Origin: Microbispora catharanthi
GTDB taxonomy: Bacteria > Actinomycetota > Actinomycetes > Streptosporangiales > Streptosporangiaceae
Direction of reading: 5' to 3'
DNA length: 64,000 nucleotides
NCBI RefSeq assembly: GCF_006334915.2
Contig: NZ_VDMA02000015.1
Coordinates: 124,001 to 188,000 of the forward strand
Shown: one piece after another, positions 57,181 through 63,352 of the stretch
How the letters are laid out: every line of letters starts with the position of its first letter
Position numbering within the stretch: position 1 is the first letter of the stretch
Notes under the pieces: model-generated
The model's input: only the letters and a program-made list of their open reading frames with translations
Told to the model about the DNA's origin: nothing
The model's database searches: none
Position numbers and translations under genes: made by a program

Positions 57181-57957
57181 TCAGCGTCGCGCAGTGTGGA
57201 GTGCGTCAGTGTCGAGTGCGTCAGCGTCATCCGTGAGTTCCGCGCGCTTGGCGGCGGCGACCACCGAGACCCAGGCCATGGCGACCAGCACACCGACGCA
57301 GAGAGTGAGGGAGCCGGCCCGCCCGCCGGACATGGCCCATCCGTTGCCCAGCAGAAGGGCCAGGCCGCCGAGACGGGAGGCGACCGCGTGCCCGGCCCGC
57401 CCCGCGCGGGCGAAGTGCCGGCCGAGGACGAAGCAGGCCGCGATGAGCGCGGTGAAGGCCACCGAGCCGGCCGCCATGTGCAGCATCGCGTGCCAGCTCA
57501 TCCCGGCCGGGGCCCCCAGCGGGGTGCCTGCGGGGAAACCGTCCCCCGGGTCCATGCTGAAGGCTCCGGCCGCCGCGAGTCCGGCGCCCTCGACGAGCAG
57601 CAGCCTGGGCGCCCACGTCCCTCCGGGCGTCCCGTGCATGACCCTGCGCAGTCCGATCGCCCCGGCGACCGTCAGCACGGCGGTGATCCAGAAGGTGCCG
57701 ATCTGCAGCCACCCGAGGTCGCCGGTGCTGAGCATGCTGAGCGGGTGACGGAGCAGGTCGAACCCCTCGCGGGTGAACGCCTGCGTCAGCGAGACGATCC
57801 CGAAGACGGGGGTGGAGAGCACGGCGCAGGTGAGCAGCGCACGCGTCGATCCCGTGAAGCCCGTCGAACCCGGCGTGGCGCGCCGCGCGGCCGGCCGCAC
57901 GGTGATCTCGTTGGTGAGCTCGGTGGCGAGCTGGGTCGTGTCCTGCGTGGTGGTCAT
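57181..57957 (-). CDS. DUF998-family membrane protein
   Basis: A 258-residue protein with about six helices, including LLTCAVLSTPVFGIVSLTQAF, IGTFWITAVLTVAGAIGLRRV, and conserved SMDPGDGFPAGTPLGAPAGMSWHAMLH, typical of DUF998. Role unknown; an export or stress-related integral membrane protein. The C-terminus is Asp/Ala/Leu/Thr-rich and encoded by short repeated bases (GTGCGTCAG type). ATG 57957 has GGAACTGCC before it. It ends 208 bp before the hydrolase leader. Confidence 0.82.
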   Translation of the reverse strand: MTTTQDTTQLATELTNEITVRPAARRATPGSTGFTGSTRALLTCAVLSTPVFGIVSLTQAFTREGFDLLRHPLSMLSTGDLGWLQIGTFWITAVLTVAGAIGLRRVMHGTPGGTWAPRLLLVEGAGLAAAGAFSMDPGDGFPAGTPLGAPAGMSWHAMLHMAAGSVAFTALIAACFVLGRHFARAGRAGHAVASRLGGLALLLGNGWAMSGGRAGSLTLCVGVLVAMAWVSVVAAAKRAELTDDADALDTDALHTARR

Positions 57958-58384
57958 GGCAGTTCCCTTCTTCGGCGTCCCGGTCTTCCCTGTCCGGGCT
58001 TCAGCGCTCTCCGGTCCCTGAGGTCCCGGGCTTCAGCGCTCTCGGGGCCCCGAGGTTCCGGGCTTCGTGTTCCGGTCCTCGGTGGTCCCGGCCGGTGCGG
58101 TGTCCGGCCTCGCTCACGCGTCGAACGGCGGCCGCGCGATTCGACCACCCGTGCCCAGCCGCACCGTCCGCCTGCCGCTTACCCCGCCCACCTGCGGCGT
58201 CAGCCACGGCTGCGCATTCCCTGTCACATGCGCATTCCCTGTCACATCCCGATAGAGGACCAGGTCACGACGTGTCAGGATCGGAGCCCGTCGATTCCGG
58301 CTCGTCCCTTACGACGTGTAGGTGACGGCAGGGACCGGCGAACGGCCCGGCCGGCCACTGGACCGAAGAAGAAGGAGAACGACG
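57958..58384. other. 427-bp divergent intergenic region
   Basis: Separates the minus-strand DUF998 gene and the plus-strand DGPF gene. It holds direct GGGCTTCAGCGCTCT-type repeats (about 58006-58050) and the perfect 18-bp tandem repeat at 58211-58246, plus likely promoters. No coding sequence is supported. Confidence 0.65.
58211..58246. repeat. perfect 18-bp tandem repeat upstream of DGPF gene
   Basis: TGCGCATTCCCTGTCACA occurs twice head to tail (58211-58228, 58229-58246), 139 bp before the DGPF start. It could be a binding-site pair. Confidence 0.8.
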
Positions 58385-58747
58385 ATGCGGTTTCTGATGA
58401 CCACCAAAGGCGGCTCCCGGACGCCGGACGCGGCGATGATGGCCGAGATGGGCGCCTTCATCGAGGAGATGACCAAGGCGGGCGTGCTGCTGGCCACCGG
58501 CGGGCTGGAGCCCGGCGGCTTGCGGATGATCTCCTCCGGCGGCGAGATCACCGTGACCGACGGCCCCTTCACGGAGGCCAAGGAGGCGATCGTCAGCTTC
58601 GCCCTGATCGAGGCGCGGTCCCGAGAGGAGGCCGTGGAGCTGGCCCGCCGCTTCTGGAAGATCGTCGGCGACGGTGAGAGCGCGATCCAGCAGGTGTTCG
58701 GCCCCGAAGACGGCCCCGAAGACGGCCCCGGGGCCGGTCCCCGCTGA
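58385..58747 (+). CDS. DGPF/YCII-domain protein (ECF42-associated)
   Basis: A 120-residue YCII-like protein with the signature VTDGPFTEAKEAIVSFALIE. Proteins with a DGPF motif are routinely encoded beside ECF42 sigma factors and are thought to be their signalling partner or target. The start ATG 58385 follows AGAAGGAG and the sigma-fusion gene is next, 88 bp downstream. The tail is GPEDGPEDGPG-rich. Confidence 0.88.
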   Translation: MRFLMTTKGGSRTPDAAMMAEMGAFIEEMTKAGVLLATGGLEPGGLRMISSGGEITVTDGPFTEAKEAIVSFALIEARSREEAVELARRFWKIVGDGESAIQQVFGPEDGPEDGPGAGPR

Positions 58748-58835: not shown

Positions 58836-61037
58836 GTGACGTCGATGGACGCCCATCGCGTCGTGGACGCGGTCTGGAAGATGGAGTCCGCGAGGATCGT
58901 CGCCGGCCTCGCGCGGATGGCCGGCGACGTCGGCCTCGCGGAGGAACTGGCGCAGGATGCCGTCCTCGCCGCGCTGGAGCAGTGGCCCGAGGCGGGCGTC
59001 CCGGACAACCCGGGCGCCTGGCTCATGGCCGTCGCCAAGCGCCGCGCCGTCGATCACCTGCGCCGGGAGGAGCGGCGGGACCGCGGGCAGGAGCGGCTCG
59101 CCCACGATCTCGCCACCCGTCCCGACGACGGCGAGCGTGACGTGGACGACGTGGTGGACGCGCTCGACGGGGAGGTCGGCGACGACGTCCTCCGGCTGAT
59201 GTTCGTCTCCTGTCACCCGGTGCTGTCCACCGAGGCCCGGGTCGCGCTCACACTGCGGCTGATCGGCGGCCTGCGGACCGACGAGATCGCGCGGGCCTTC
59301 CTCGTCTCCGAGAGCGCCGTCGCCCAGCGGATCGTGCGGGCCAAGCGGGCGCTCGCCGACGCGCACGTCCCCTTCGAGGTCCCGGCGGGGCCGGAACGGG
59401 CGGCCCGGCTGTCGTCGGTGCTCGAAGTGATCTATCTCGTGTTCAACGAGGGGTACGCGGCGACGGCGGGCGACGACCTGATGCGCCCGTCCCTCTGCCT
59501 GGAGGCGCTGCGCCTGGGCCGCGTCCTGGCCGAGCTGACCTCGGACGAGGCGGAGGTGCACGGCCTGGTCGCGCTGATGGAACTGCAGCAGTCGCGCTCG
59601 GCCGCGCGTACCGGCCCGTCGGGGGAGCCCGTCGTGCTGCACGAGCAGAACCGGGGGCGCTGGGACCCGCTGCTCATCCGGCGCGGCTTCGCGGCGCTGC
59701 TGCGGGCGCGGCAGGCCGGCGGCCCTCTCGGCCCCTACGTGCTGCAGGCGGCCATCGCGGCCTGCCACGCGCGGGCCGCCACGCCGGAGGAGACCGACTG
59801 GCCGCAGATCGCGGCGCTCTACGAGGCCCTCGTCAGGGTGCTGCCCACACCGGTCGTCCAGCTCAACCGCGCGGTCGCGCTCGCCATGGCCTACGGGCCG
59901 CGCGCCGGTCTCACGCTGGTGGACACGCTGACCGGCGAGCCGGCGCTCACGGGCTACCACCTGCTGCCCGCCGTACGCGGGGATCTGCTGGCCCGGCTGG
60001 GCCGGCACGACGAGGCCCTGGCGGAGTTCGAACGCGCCGCGTCCCTCACCCGCAACAGCGCGGAACGGGCCGTGCTGCTGCGGCGCGCCGCGACCTGCGC
60101 AGCGAAAGCCGGGGAGGCGGAGAAAGCCGAAGAAGCCGAGCAAGAGGCCACGGAGGCCGGCCCTGCGGAGGGGGACGTCACCCTCGGCAGGGCGATGGGG
60201 CTCTTCCTCGCCCGGCCCGATCTGAGCGCCGACACCGTCCGCTCCTACAACCAGACCCTGACGCGGCTGTGCCGGCACCTCGGCGAGGACGCCCCGATAC
60301 GCGACGTGACGTCCCACCGGGTCGCCGAGGTCTTCGCCGCGGCGTGGGGCACGGCGGCGGCCGCGACCTGGAACCGGCACCGCGCGGCGCTGCGGTCGTT
60401 CGCCACGTGGGCGGCCGAGCGCGGGTGGGCCGCCGCCGGCCTCGCCGCCCCGCTCGACCGGCGGCCCGAACCCCGCCCCCGCATCCGCCCCATCGACCGG
60501 TCGCGGCTGGAGAGCCTGTGGAAGCGGCCGGACATCCCGCTGCGCGAGCGCACGCTGTGGCTGCTGCTGTACGAGAGCGCGGCCCCGGCAGAGTGGGCGC
60601 TCTCGCTGAACGTGGAGGACCTCGACCTGCCCGGCATGCGCGGCGAGGTGAAGGCCAGAGGGCACTGGCTGCGCTGGCAGTCCGGCACGGCCGCGCTCCT
60701 GCCCCTCCTCGTCGGAGACCGCCGCCGGGGCCCGCTGTTCCTCGCCGACCGCAGGCCGGGGCCGGGTCGCATGCCCGCGACGGCCGACCTGTGCCCGCAC
60801 ACGGGCCGGGGCCGCCTGTCGTACGAGCGGGCGGAGTACCTGTTCAAACGGGCCACCGGGGACCTCGACCCGGAGGGCGGCGGCTCCACCCTGCACCGCC
60901 TGCGCCACTCGCGCCTGGCCCACCTCGGCGAGGAGGGCTGGTCCGCGCGGATGCTCATGTCCCTGTCCGGCCACGCCAGCGCGCGGACCCTGCACGGATT
61001 CGTCAGGGTCCCGCGACCTGCGGATACCGTTGCCTGA
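58836..61037 (+). CDS. ECF42-type sigma factor fused to a degenerate tyrosine recombinase
   Basis: A continuous 733-residue frame. Residues 1-180 are an ECF sigma: region 2 (SARIVAGLARMAGDVGLAEELAQDAVLAALEQWP) and region 4 (GGLRTDEIARAFLVSESAVAQRIVRAKRALA, in part). Residues 185-430 are the ECF42 C-terminal extension (EVIYLVFNEGY). After a Glu/Ala linker (about 430-443) comes a XerC/D-like SAM-like domain (SADTVRSYNQTLTRLCRH) and a catalytic-type domain with HRLRHSRLAHLGEEG (His 687). Arg I position reads Pro584 and the nucleophile Tyr position Phe722, so cleavage is unlikely. GTG 58836 or ATG 58845 are possible starts. The kinase starts right after the stop. Confidence 0.78.
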   Translation: MTSMDAHRVVDAVWKMESARIVAGLARMAGDVGLAEELAQDAVLAALEQWPEAGVPDNPGAWLMAVAKRRAVDHLRREERRDRGQERLAHDLATRPDDGERDVDDVVDALDGEVGDDVLRLMFVSCHPVLSTEARVALTLRLIGGLRTDEIARAFLVSESAVAQRIVRAKRALADAHVPFEVPAGPERAARLSSVLEVIYLVFNEGYAATAGDDLMRPSLCLEALRLGRVLAELTSDEAEVHGLVALMELQQSRSAARTGPSGEPVVLHEQNRGRWDPLLIRRGFAALLRARQAGGPLGPYVLQAAIAACHARAATPEETDWPQIAALYEALVRVLPTPVVQLNRAVALAMAYGPRAGLTLVDTLTGEPALTGYHLLPAVRGDLLARLGRHDEALAEFERAASLTRNSAERAVLLRRAATCAAKAGEAEKAEEAEQEATEAGPAEGDVTLGRAMGLFLARPDLSADTVRSYNQTLTRLCRHLGEDAPIRDVTSHRVAEVFAAAWGTAAAATWNRHRAALRSFATWAAERGWAAAGLAAPLDRRPEPRPRIRPIDRSRLESLWKRPDIPLRERTLWLLLYESAAPAEWALSLNVEDLDLPGMRGEVKARGHWLRWQSGTAALLPLLVGDRRRGPLFLADRRPGPGRMPATADLCPHTGRGRLSYERAEYLFKRATGDLDPEGGGSTLHRLRHSRLAHLGEEGWSARMLMSLSGHASARTLHGFVRVPRPADTVA

Positions 61038-62648
61038 GTGGGGAGGAAAGCGGCATACCTCAAGGACGTCCTGCTCTGGGCCGTCCTCGGCCTGCCGGCG
61101 CTGTGGGCGGGCCTCACGAACATCCTGGCCGACAGGTACACCTGGCCCGAGGTGATCGCAGGCCTGGCGACGATCGGCGTCGCCGTCGCGCTCGCCCGGC
61201 CCCGGCCGCTGGGGGCGATGCTCGTGACGGCCGCGCTGTGGGCGGGTTCGGTGGCCGTGCGGGGCGACCCCACCGTCTTCTTCCCGGCCCTGGCGGTGAC
61301 GAGCTACCTGGCCGGGGTGCGCATGGCCCGGGCCCGGCCCGCCCTGCTCGGCCTGTCGGCCGCCGCGGTGGTCGCCGCCGCCGCCGTCCCGTTCGTACGG
61401 TGGCTCCTCGCGGCGCAGTGGGATCTGGGCGCGTGGTTCTTCGCCGTCACGGGCATCGCGCTGTTCGGACTCGTCCCGTGGCTCGCGGGCCACGCGAGGC
61501 ACCAGAGCCTGGCCCTGACCAGGGCGGGCTGGGAACGCGCCGGGCACCTGGAGCGCGAGCGGCGCATGGTCGCCGAGCAGGCGAGGCTGCGGGAGCGGGC
61601 GGCCATCGCGAGGGAGATGCACGACCTGCTCGGTCACGACCTGAGCCTGGTCGCGCTGCGGATCGGGGCCCTGGAGGTCGACGCCGGCCTTCCCGAGAGC
61701 CGGCGCCGGGCCGCGGGCGAGGCCCGCGAGGCGGTCACCGCCGCGGCGGAGCGCCTGCGCGACATCGTCACCGTGCTCAGGGACGGCGACGACCCCGGCC
61801 CGGAACACGAAGGCCTGGAAAATGAAGACACGGTGCATGAAGACACGACCCACCCGCCCGAGGAGAGCGTGGACGAACTGGTCCGGCGCGCCGCGGCCGC
61901 CGGAATGCCGGTAACGCTGCACGGCGCGCAGGAGGAGGCGCGGATCCCCGCGCCCGCGCTCGTCACCGTGCGGCGGGTCGTCCGTGAGGGGCTGACCAAC
62001 GCCGCCAAGCACGCGCCCGGCGCCCCGGTCACCGTACGGCTCGCGCTCGCACCGGGCGAGACCGTGGTCACCGTCGCCAACGCCGCGTCGCACCGGCCCG
62101 GGCGCGGCGTGACCGGCGGACACGGACTGCGGGCGCTGGCGGTGCGGGTCCGTCTGCAGGGTGGGTCCGTGGAAAGCGGCCCCGCCGACGACGGGTTCAC
62201 CCTGACCGTACGGCTCCCGCACTCCGTTTCCCCGCATGTCCCCCCGCATGTCCCCCCGCGAACGGCGTCGCGGCCCGTGGAGCTGGATCTGGCGCTGGCC
62301 CGGCGGCGGGTGCGCCGTACGCGGCTGGCCGCGGCGCTGGTCTGCCTGGCCGCGGCGGCCGGAGTGGCGGCGTTCGTGCTGGGGTTCACGGTCTACGAGG
62401 CGGTCACCTCGGTCCTGCCGCCGGCCGAGTTCGCGAAGCTGCGGGTCGGGCAGGCCGAGTCGGAGGTCGCGGCGGTGCTGCCGGCCAGGACCAGGATCGA
62501 CGATCCGTCGTGGCCCGAGCCGCCGATCCCGCCGGGCGCCCGGTGCCGCTACTACAGCACCAGCCCCGAGCCGTTCGGCGACTTGACGCTCTACCGGCTG
62601 TGCTTCGCCGGGGGCCGCCTGGTCGCCAAGGCTTTCCTGCCCTCCTGA
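61038..62648 (+). CDS. sensor histidine kinase with C-terminal BamE-like domain
   Basis: A 536-residue kinase. About five N-terminal helices, DHp (REMHDLLGHDLSLVALRIGALEVD), HATPase (REGLTNAAKHAPG, GGHGLRALAVRVRLQGG). A second membrane segment (LVCLAAAAGVAAFVLGFTVYEAV, about residue 435-460) and an extracytoplasmic tail follow: KLRVGQAESEVAAVLP, CRYYSTSPEPFGDLTLYRLCFAGGRLVAKAF, resembling the SmpA/OmlA (BamE) fold. NarL-type kinases normally end at the ATPase domain. GTG 61038 abuts the sigma-fusion stop (TGAGTG), and its regulator follows. Confidence 0.85.
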   Translation: MGRKAAYLKDVLLWAVLGLPALWAGLTNILADRYTWPEVIAGLATIGVAVALARPRPLGAMLVTAALWAGSVAVRGDPTVFFPALAVTSYLAGVRMARARPALLGLSAAAVVAAAAVPFVRWLLAAQWDLGAWFFAVTGIALFGLVPWLAGHARHQSLALTRAGWERAGHLERERRMVAEQARLRERAAIAREMHDLLGHDLSLVALRIGALEVDAGLPESRRRAAGEAREAVTAAAERLRDIVTVLRDGDDPGPEHEGLENEDTVHEDTTHPPEESVDELVRRAAAAGMPVTLHGAQEEARIPAPALVTVRRVVREGLTNAAKHAPGAPVTVRLALAPGETVVTVANAASHRPGRGVTGGHGLRALAVRVRLQGGSVESGPADDGFTLTVRLPHSVSPHVPPHVPPRTASRPVELDLALARRRVRRTRLAAALVCLAAAAGVAAFVLGFTVYEAVTSVLPPAEFAKLRVGQAESEVAAVLPARTRIDDPSWPEPPIPPGARCRYYSTSPEPFGDLTLYRLCFAGGRLVAKAFLPS

Positions 62649-62689
62649 GCGGCACCCGGAGACTTTCCACGCTTCCGTACCATCAAGGC

Positions 62690-63352
62690 ATGCACGCGAT
62701 CCGGGTGGTCCTGGCCGACGACGAACCGGTGATCCGGGCCGGGGTGCGGGCGATCCTGGCGGCGGACCCGGGCATCGAGGTGGTCGCCGAGGCCGCCGAC
62801 GGGCGTGAGCTGGTGGACGCCGTCCTGGCGCACCGGCCCGACGTCGCGCTCGTCGACATCCGGATGCCCGCCCTGGACGGGCTGGCCGCCGCGGCCGAGG
62901 TGCGCAGGACCGCCCCCGGCACCGCCGTACTGATCATGACGTCCTTCGGCGAGGACGCCTACGTCGCGCGGGCGCTGGGCGACGGCGCGGCGGGATTCCT
63001 GTTGAAGACCGGGGATCCGCGCGAGTTCCCCCTCGGGGTGCGGGCGGCGGCCGAGGGCGGGGCGTACCTGTCGCCGCCGGTGGCCGCACGGGTCATCCGG
63101 GGACTCGCCGGCGACCGGCTGTCGCGCTCGGCCGCGGCCCGGGAACAGGTCGCGGCGCTGACCGGCCGGGAGCGCGAGGTGCTCGCCCTGGTCGGCGAGG
63201 GCATGTCGAACGCGGGCATCGCCGCCCGTCTGCACCTCGCCGAGGGCAGCGTCAAGACCTACGTGAGCACGATCATGGGAAAGCTCGGCGTGCCCAACCG
63301 GGTGCGGGCGGCGGTCATCGCCCATGAGGCGGGACTGGCGGGCGGGCGGTAG
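62690..63352 (+). CDS. NarL/LuxR-type response regulator
   Basis: A 220-residue regulator, cognate of the preceding kinase. Receiver: VVLADDEPVIRAGVRAIL, phospho-Asp in VALVDIRMPALDG, Lys in GFLLKTGDPREF. HTH: LTGREREVLALVGEGMSNAGIAARLHLAEGSVKTYVSTIMGKLG (in part). It lies 41 bp after the kinase and converges on the PAP2 gene with a 38-bp overlap. Confidence 0.94.
   Translation: MHAIRVVLADDEPVIRAGVRAILAADPGIEVVAEAADGRELVDAVLAHRPDVALVDIRMPALDGLAAAAEVRRTAPGTAVLIMTSFGEDAYVARALGDGAAGFLLKTGDPREFPLGVRAAAEGGAYLSPPVAARVIRGLAGDRLSRSAAAREQVAALTGREREVLALVGEGMSNAGIAARLHLAEGSVKTYVSTIMGKLGVPNRVRAAVIAHEAGLAGGR

Follow-up and report, generated by a model that had tools for sequence, protein, structure and literature searches.

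Does a sigma factor that carries a recombinase domain use it to find its promoters? The question arises from one gene on a 64,000-nucleotide stretch of the Microbispora catharanthi genome (assembly GCF_006334915.2, contig NZ_VDMA02000015.1, positions 124,001 to 188,000; hereafter the window). An earlier note had read positions 58836-61037 of the window as a single frame joining an extracytoplasmic function (ECF) sigma factor of the ECF42 type to a XerC/D-like tyrosine recombinase, and had suggested a sequence-addressed sigma factor. With a probability of roughly 77%, the comparisons below point to an ECF42 sigma factor with an exapted, dead recombinase as a second DNA-reading head, which would be addressed to its promoter by recombinase-derived arms.

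The fusion is genuine. The frame runs for 733 amino acids without a stop and has Pfam domains of both halves. On the sigma side, these are Sigma70_r2, Sigma70_r4_2, DUF6596 (4e-35) and a weak TPR (TPR_12, 5e-6, under its gathering score), in agreement with an ECF42-type factor with its C-terminal extension; the gene combines sigma regions 2 and 4, a DGPF/YCII neighbour and an extension of about 200 amino acids with TPR, as ECF42 members do. Elsewhere in the same genome, the sigma part alone has 13 more strong matches, and the closest unfused paralogue is 66% identical to the sigma part of the window protein.

We searched 60 relatives and 250 genomes of the family, and many matches lay in frames that could accommodate both halves. 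Eighty regions were then selected that looked like fused copies, stand-alone recombinases or sigma genes on their own; one open reading frame (ORF) matched both halves in 67 of them. A second scan, covering the best 80 of 221 relatives and sharing many assemblies with the chosen regions, gave 64 fused and 16 stand-alone copies. The fused copies are spread across Actinomycetes, in Microbispora, Streptosporangium, Nonomuraea, Streptomyces, Kitasatospora, Amycolatopsis, Pseudonocardia, Paractinoplanes, Rhodococcus and others. Both halves are in frame in further Microbispora assemblies, among them the genomes G001 and G010, each a single contig. On two complete Streptomyces plasmids, the fusion is annotated as one coding sequence behind a YciI gene, with a divergent DUF998 gene present. 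Since further assemblies of the genus keep the frame uninterrupted and complete plasmids carry it as a single coding sequence, the junction is not an assembly error. The two findings that the earlier note had said would undo its reading thus did not appear: rather than an indel at the junction we found a frame recurring in dozens of assemblies, and rather than relatives that are always split, closest relatives that are fused. The fusion recurs, as that note had asked; its linker evolves fast and varies in length.

One copy, L121 (G100:C1), has its sigma and recombinase parts in two overlapping frames and is either broken or affected by a sequencing error. At L139 (G133:C1), a 715-amino-acid frame with a recombinase domain at residues 442-661, degenerate catalytic residues and no sigma match at the cut-off may be another fusion or merely a long open frame. 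Six records of a plasmid collection (NZ_CP108089, NZ_CP109269, NZ_CP109414, NZ_CP109402, NZ_CP108777 and NZ_CP108785), namely four Streptomyces plasmids and two large replicons of Embleya, match the fused protein over 92-93% of its length, so the gene may move between strains.

The earlier note had called the C-terminal half a recombinase; it has the fold of one, with core-binding and catalytic domains, but the catalytic residues have been lost. Aligned with XerC and XerD, the 68 fused copies (67 plus the window) retain ArgI in 5, the His of HxxR in 18, ArgII in 47, the second His in 16 and the Tyr in 2; the column of the catalytic Lys aligned poorly and was excluded from the argument. Fifty-one of the 68 end near the HxLR box and lack the positions of the second His and the Tyr. 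The Tyr is replaced by F or L in 12 of the 13 Microbispora copies, the exception being L070 (M. corallina), in which Tyr is present and ArgI is lost. In the window, ArgI has become Pro, Tyr has become Phe and Lys is unaligned, a departure from the R-K-H-R-H/W-Y set of active recombinases. Eight of the 11 non-fused rows have all of R-K-H-R-H-Y, and one of the other three is the frame-broken fused copy L121. In the 400 bases downstream of the stop of truncated copies, we found no convincing relic of the lost tail or programmed frameshift; the tail-relic matches with E < ~0.01 were the in-frame tails of seven Microbispora copies and an antisense match of 18 residues in L116. It is highly improbable that the fusion is a working recombinase, expressed by its sigma part, whose sites invert or excise promoters: the 13-N-13 geometry of those sites (see below) resembles a recombination core site, and one lineage (L082 = L193) retains ArgI, His, ArgII, His and Tyr, but the Tyr is absent from 66 and ArgI from 63 of the 68 copies, and the spacer between arms is mostly 8-10 bp in fused loci as against 6-7 bp in stand-alone loci.

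For nine Microbispora copies, the ratio of nonsynonymous to synonymous substitution rates (dN/dS; Nei-Gojobori) was 0.83 in the linker (amino acids 424-448) and 0.17-0.18 in the sigma part. Within the recombinase part, it was 0.51 in the core-binding domain, 0.28 in the N-terminal part of the catalytic domain and 0.14 in the tail, a sign of purifying selection. For the recombinase part of truncated copies, it was 0.24-0.51 in four larger sets and 0.04-0.73 in smaller ones. Across 61 fused and stand-alone rows, T-W-N in a core-binding helix and R, L, Y, R and A in the helix before the HxLR box were invariant. The recombinase fold was predicted with confidence for both the window (predicted local distance difference test [pLDDT] score 91.9) and a truncated Streptomyces copy (pLDDT 94.5). 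Matches of the two models in the PDB were mainly DNA-bound recombinases (Tn1549 Int, XerA, lambda Int and Cre); SroF was in both match lists, and MrpR matched the truncated Streptomyces copy at E 1e-3. Neutral read-through, with the recombinase part as a decaying passenger, would account for the lost catalytic residues and C-terminus and for the higher dN/dS of the pair L080/L081, but dN/dS is well below 1 in the larger sets, truncated copies share an end point near the HxLR box and the frame is kept across Actinomycetes, and we give this explanation scarcely any weight. Judged by its residues, the recombinase part is catalytically dead yet conserved, and it is probably a DNA-reading module.

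The module's candidate target is a 13-bp arm, TTCCCTGTCACAT, present in two tandem copies upstream of the window operon. We searched the 300 bases before the DGPF gene for this arm, allowing up to two mismatches; three fused loci without a DGPF anchor (L115, L219 and L241) have no row in this set. Duplicates were removed by identity for the counts of 105 regions and of spacers, and kept for the counts of 131 and 78 loci. The forward arm was present in 100 of the 105 distinct fused upstream regions, with its reverse complement in the remaining 5, whereas shuffled upstream regions yielded the forward arm in 2 out of 2100 cases and ECF42 control loci in 0 out of 21. By tblastn, none of these controls has a recombinase match; 20 lack the recombinase part, and the stretch of the last, L024, is cut by a contig end. 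Of the controls, 17 out of 21 have a match to TGTCGA-N15-18-CG[AT]C anywhere in the stretch, irrespective of position.

The window's genome (9.25 Mb) contains the exact 13-mer at just two places, both of them at this operon; a one-mismatch version lies at 3 more places, and the control read backwards at 2. The 250 family genomes hold the exact 13-mer at 120 places, 84 of them within 4 kb of a fused gene. Among the matches listed, at least 68 genomes have a fused gene (one of them, G100, frame-broken); the exact 13-mer is present in 61 of these 68 genomes, near the fused gene in 57, and in 12 of the 182 others, counts not corrected for relatedness. Many of the single arms far from a fused gene are probably chance occurrences or att-like sites.

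The same arms accompany stand-alone relatives. Within 1.8 kb upstream of the gene and with up to 5 mismatches in 26, we found them as a 13-6/7-13 palindrome at 11 out of 21 stand-alone relatives, and the same search returned 0 out of 21 both in shuffled sequence and in the ECF42 controls. The palindrome-bearing loci are L084/L201 (identical), L085, L196-L198, L200, L221 (split across two frames), L259, L264, L144 and L145, and 9 of the 11 have all six catalytic residues. When up to two mismatches per arm were allowed, the spacer was 7 (six loci) or 6 (three) bp in stand-alone loci, and 8 (43), 9 (10), 10 (3), 4 (1) or 12 (1) bp in fused loci. Exact palindromes occurred at five places in 394 genomes from across the class: three were at fused genes (G386, G206 and G232), and the other two lay at a stand-alone gene in G103 and, in G105, beside a sigma-like ORF that has a recombinase fragment at a distance of about 4.6 kb. 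The place and form of the palindrome suggest that the stand-alone enzymes recombine at it as their core site; these enzymes are possibly an undescribed family of tyrosine recombinases with compact, lox-like sites. A protein-interaction or autoinhibitory role for the fused domain, with the arms bound by an unrelated regulator, would suit both the generally regulatory nature of ECF C-terminal extensions, as described in a review of ECF sigma factors (PMC8999054), and a linker that varies freely between conserved ends; this explanation is nonetheless quite unlikely, as the same arms mark stand-alone recombinases that have no ECF42 sigma gene in the fetched stretch, and they track the fused gene across genomes.

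Several other loci touch on these sites. The sister stand-alones L083 (G269) and L199 have ArgI replaced (L083 also the first His), keep the Tyr and have no upstream palindrome; we regard them as separate degenerate copies. Neither the recombinase nor the ECF42 queries matched the stretches fetched around the 13-6/7-13 palindromes at L296:2593, L297:2449 and L300:2503; these palindromes may be empty attachment sites. At L284:3204-3237 (G071:C33), an exact 13-8-13 operator lies upstream of a DGPF-like ORF and another ECF42-like gene, 43% identical and without a recombinase match, in a genome that also carries a fusion; cross-regulation there is possible. At L285, an operator lies between DGPF and DUF998 genes with no sigma gene in the fetched stretch, and the fused gene of that genome is on another contig, so action in trans is likely.

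The position of the arms relative to the promoter revealed two forms. A scan open to spacings of 9-18 bp, and independent of the later typing, anchored 118 of 129 regions and placed a TGTC element 10 (39), 11 (40) or 17 (39) bp before the -10, with no other spacing. Accordingly, we assigned 39 of the 129 regions to type I (xGTCGA, 17 bp, CGACG) and 78 to type II (an arm and CG[AT]C, 8-9 bp apart), leaving 12 without a type. The window, of type I, matches with one mismatch what we take to be the ECF42 promoter consensus, TGTCGA / CG[AT]C, whereas type II relatives do not match it. Its two tandem arms end 64 bp before the -10; among 27 distinct type I regions, the distance from the end of the proximal arm to the -10 is 51-52, 62-65 or 75 bp, a pattern suggestive of helical phasing, in few lineages. 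In type II, the form of most other genera, a palindrome, usually 13-8/9-13, lies 8-9 bp from the -10 at the place of the -35, where the bases in most regions are TTCC(C) of the arm. The match to TGTCGA at the -35 place was 5.48/6 for type I, 2.01/6 for type II (69 distinct regions) and 2.78 for shuffled sequence, values that, like the arm gaps, are not independent of the typing, which uses the arm-to-(-10) gap and the -35 itself. A mirrored CG[AT]CG at an equal gap (within 2 bp) was present in 53 out of 57 type II regions with a left arm, compared with 98 out of 2850 shuffled ones; taken together with a divergent DUF998 gene upstream in 90 out of 131 fused loci, this suggests that the type II operator probably serves both directions.

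The sigma4 protein residues, which are independent of the promoter typing, differ between the types as well. Position 168 of the recognition helix, inferred from its helix-turn-helix place to contact DNA, is Arg in all 21 controls and all 27 distinct type I sequences; in type II, it is Arg in 3 out of 78 loci and Lys in 3. Position 167 is Ala in 67 out of 69 distinct type II sequences. A head that binds the arms could also act negatively, as the anchor of an autorepressor or by keeping the sigma factor poised or inactive until a signal arrives. Exact arms only at the operon itself in the window genome are what an autoregulator would have, and MrpR, which has a recombinase fold without catalysis, is described as a repressor (PMC10516654). 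In type II, however, the -35 is missing, the sigma4 residues are changed and the arm lies in the -35 place, so something else must supply promoter recognition, and we consider negative action unlikely.

The idea of a sequence-addressed sigma factor thus gained support, with arms at 105 out of 105 distinct operons, 11 out of 21 stand-alone relatives and 0 out of 21 controls, and with the arm standing where the -35 would be in most lineages, in which sigma4 has lost recognition-helix residues. Under this preferred reading, the recombinase domain would bind the 13-bp arms, derived from an ancestral recombinase core site, and a flexible linker would let this head bring RNA polymerase, together with the sigma factor, to the promoter region of the divergent DGPF-sigma and DUF998 genes. 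In type I, as in the window, tandem arms would assist a near-canonical -35/-10 promoter; in type II, the palindrome would replace the -35 and the recombinase head would substitute for sigma4. Signals may enter through DGPF/TPR. The fusion, its conservation, the dead active site, the arms and their spacing, the missing -35 and the changed sigma4 residues can all be read from the sequences, whereas arm binding and recruitment are what we infer. It seems fairly likely that this is a family of sigma factors reading their promoters by a captured site-specific recombinase whose core site moved into the promoter, and that in the derived lineage the head assumed sigma4's reading of the -35, giving a symmetric, two-way promoter with a lox-like operator.

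The trees bear on how this arrangement arose. In the recombinase tree, a branch with support 99 separates fused from stand-alone rows, except for the frame-broken L121, and holding the fused rows together was not rejected (approximately unbiased test, p 0.72). One nested clade (100) unites the type II rows and a small number of untyped rows; under midpoint rooting, L193, whose residue set is near-complete, branches at the base of the fused side. The sigma tree gives a type I (99) and a type II (88) group without ordering them relative to the unfused rows. A plausible history would be one fusion with a recombinase, capturing its arms, followed by loss of catalysis and, later, in type II, by a palindromic operator over the -35 and an altered sigma4 helix.

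Several observations weigh against this account. Eleven of the 68 genomes with a listed fusion have no exact arm near the fused gene, and the exact arm is present in 12 of the 182 genomes without one. In several of these 12, a stand-alone relative or a fragment lies next to the arm site. The arms in the window form a direct repeat and not a palindrome, unlike the core sites of active recombinases (inverted arms, 6-8 bp centre). Ten of the 21 stand-alone relatives have no such palindrome within 1.8 kb, and two that have it are themselves degenerate (L198 without ArgI; L259 without ArgII, the second His and the Tyr). The fused lineage L082 = L193 keeps five catalytic residues, and the pair L080/L081 evolves faster in its recombinase part (dN/dS 0.73 and 0.51). 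A single fusion event is not evident from the sigma tree itself. Because the types were defined by promoter spacing, the -35 score restates that definition, and because types I and II are each about one clade of the sigma tree, the association of a lost -35 with an altered sigma4 depends on a single event or a small number of them. We also rejected a tuning of linker length to operator distance, as the two were only weakly correlated, in type I (rho 0.37, p 0.058).

The genes around the fusion are partly conserved (see Table 1 for coordinates). The earlier note had placed it between its usual DGPF partner and a two-component system, and both are present in the window. DGPF lies upstream in 62 out of 64 fused loci among the best 80 of 221 relatives. 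A histidine kinase begins at GTG 61038, immediately 3' of the fused-gene TGA, and the two-component system fills 61038-63352. A kinase homologue in this position was found in 4 of the 64 fused loci, all in Microbispora, and the two-component system was therefore ruled out as part of the fused-sigma system. Another Microbispora locus, L190, has no kinase match and a response-regulator fragment only.

Table 1. Coordinates, within the window, of the fused gene, its parts and the elements around it
Feature	Position	Strand	Remark
Divergent DUF998 gene	57181..57957	-	beyond DGPF gene; probable co-target
First copy of perfect 18-bp tandem repeat	58212..58229	+	holds arm TTCCCTGTCACAT at 58217-58229
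Second copy of 18-bp tandem repeat	58230..58247	+	holds arm TTCCCTGTCACAT at 58235-58247
ECF42-type -35 element CGTCGA	58289..58294	+	one mismatch to TGTCGA
-10 element CGACGT	58312..58317	+	17 bp after -35
DGPF/YCII partner gene	58385-58747	+	5' of fused gene
Fused gene: ECF42 sigma factor, linker and degenerate tyrosine-recombinase domain	58836..61037	+	733 aa; GTG 58836 (alternative start ATG 58845) to TGA 61037
Sigma region 2, aa 21-81	58896..59078	+	Pfam Sigma70_r2
Sigma region 4, aa 123-173	59202..59354	+	Pfam Sigma70_r4_2
Recognition-helix Arg168	59337-59339	+	retained in window; most type II relatives lack it
ECF42 C-terminal extension: DUF6596 aa 191-291 and weak TPR aa ~381-441	59406..60158	+	Pfam
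Acidic Glu/Ala-rich linker, aa 424-445	60105..60170	+	length variable among relatives; dN/dS ~0.83
Recombinase core-binding (SAM-like) domain, aa 446-540	60171..60455	+	Pfam Phage_int_SAM_1 aa 462-530, 2e-9
Catalytic-domain remnant, aa 541-733	60456..61034	+	Pfam Phage_integrase aa 654-719, 4.5e-8
ArgI position = Pro584	60585-60587	+	window protein
HRLRH box kept	60894-60908	+	window protein
Catalytic-Tyr position = Phe722	60999-61001	+	window protein

Bacterial promoters are normally read by σ2 and σ4, with activators assisting from outside. If the preferred reading is right, this sigma factor carries its own operator-reading domain of recombinase origin, and the σ4 of one lineage seems to have abandoned the -35. 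That would be a new way of promoter choice and a natural blueprint for orthogonal sigma factors. It would also be an exaptation of an enzyme into a regulator with its stages preserved: a near-intact site in L193, the Tyr lost in most Microbispora copies and the C-terminus gone elsewhere.

No sigma family known to us uses a fused recombinase domain to read promoters, and our search of the open-access literature found no sigma-recombinase fusion; for these two reasons, we judge such a family to be new, while its parts (ECF42 and dead recombinase regulators such as MrpR) were already known. On a stricter judgement, it could be placed within ECF42. The main text of the review of ECF sigma factors (PMC8999054) contains neither "recombinase" nor "integrase". 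With ECF42 factors the fusion shares sigma2 and sigma4, the DUF6596/TPR extension, the DGPF neighbour and, in type I, the type of promoter; it differs in its C-terminal recombinase domain and arm-marked promoter and, in type II, in lacking a -35 consensus and having an altered sigma4 recognition helix. PMC10516654 describes MrpR as the master repressor of phage SPbeta, with a recombinase fold whose function is lost and which binds a conserved DNA element. The fusion likewise keeps a tyrosine-recombinase fold without the catalytic residues, and sequence comparison suggests that it, too, binds DNA; MrpR, as described there, is a free-standing phage repressor that is not joined to a sigma factor. 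With XerC/XerD, Tn1549 Int, lambda Int and Cre the fusion shares the core-binding and catalytic fold, and its stand-alone relatives lie beside a two-arm palindrome, but the fused copies lack R-K-H-R-H-Y, are mostly truncated at the C-terminus and mostly have an operator spacer of 8-10 bp, not 6-7 bp. In systems that pair a nuclease-dead Cas12f with an ECF sigma factor, an exapted dead DNA-targeting enzyme likewise supplies the sigma factor's address. There, the address is RNA-guided and comes from a separate protein, whereas here a fused protein would read a fixed site.

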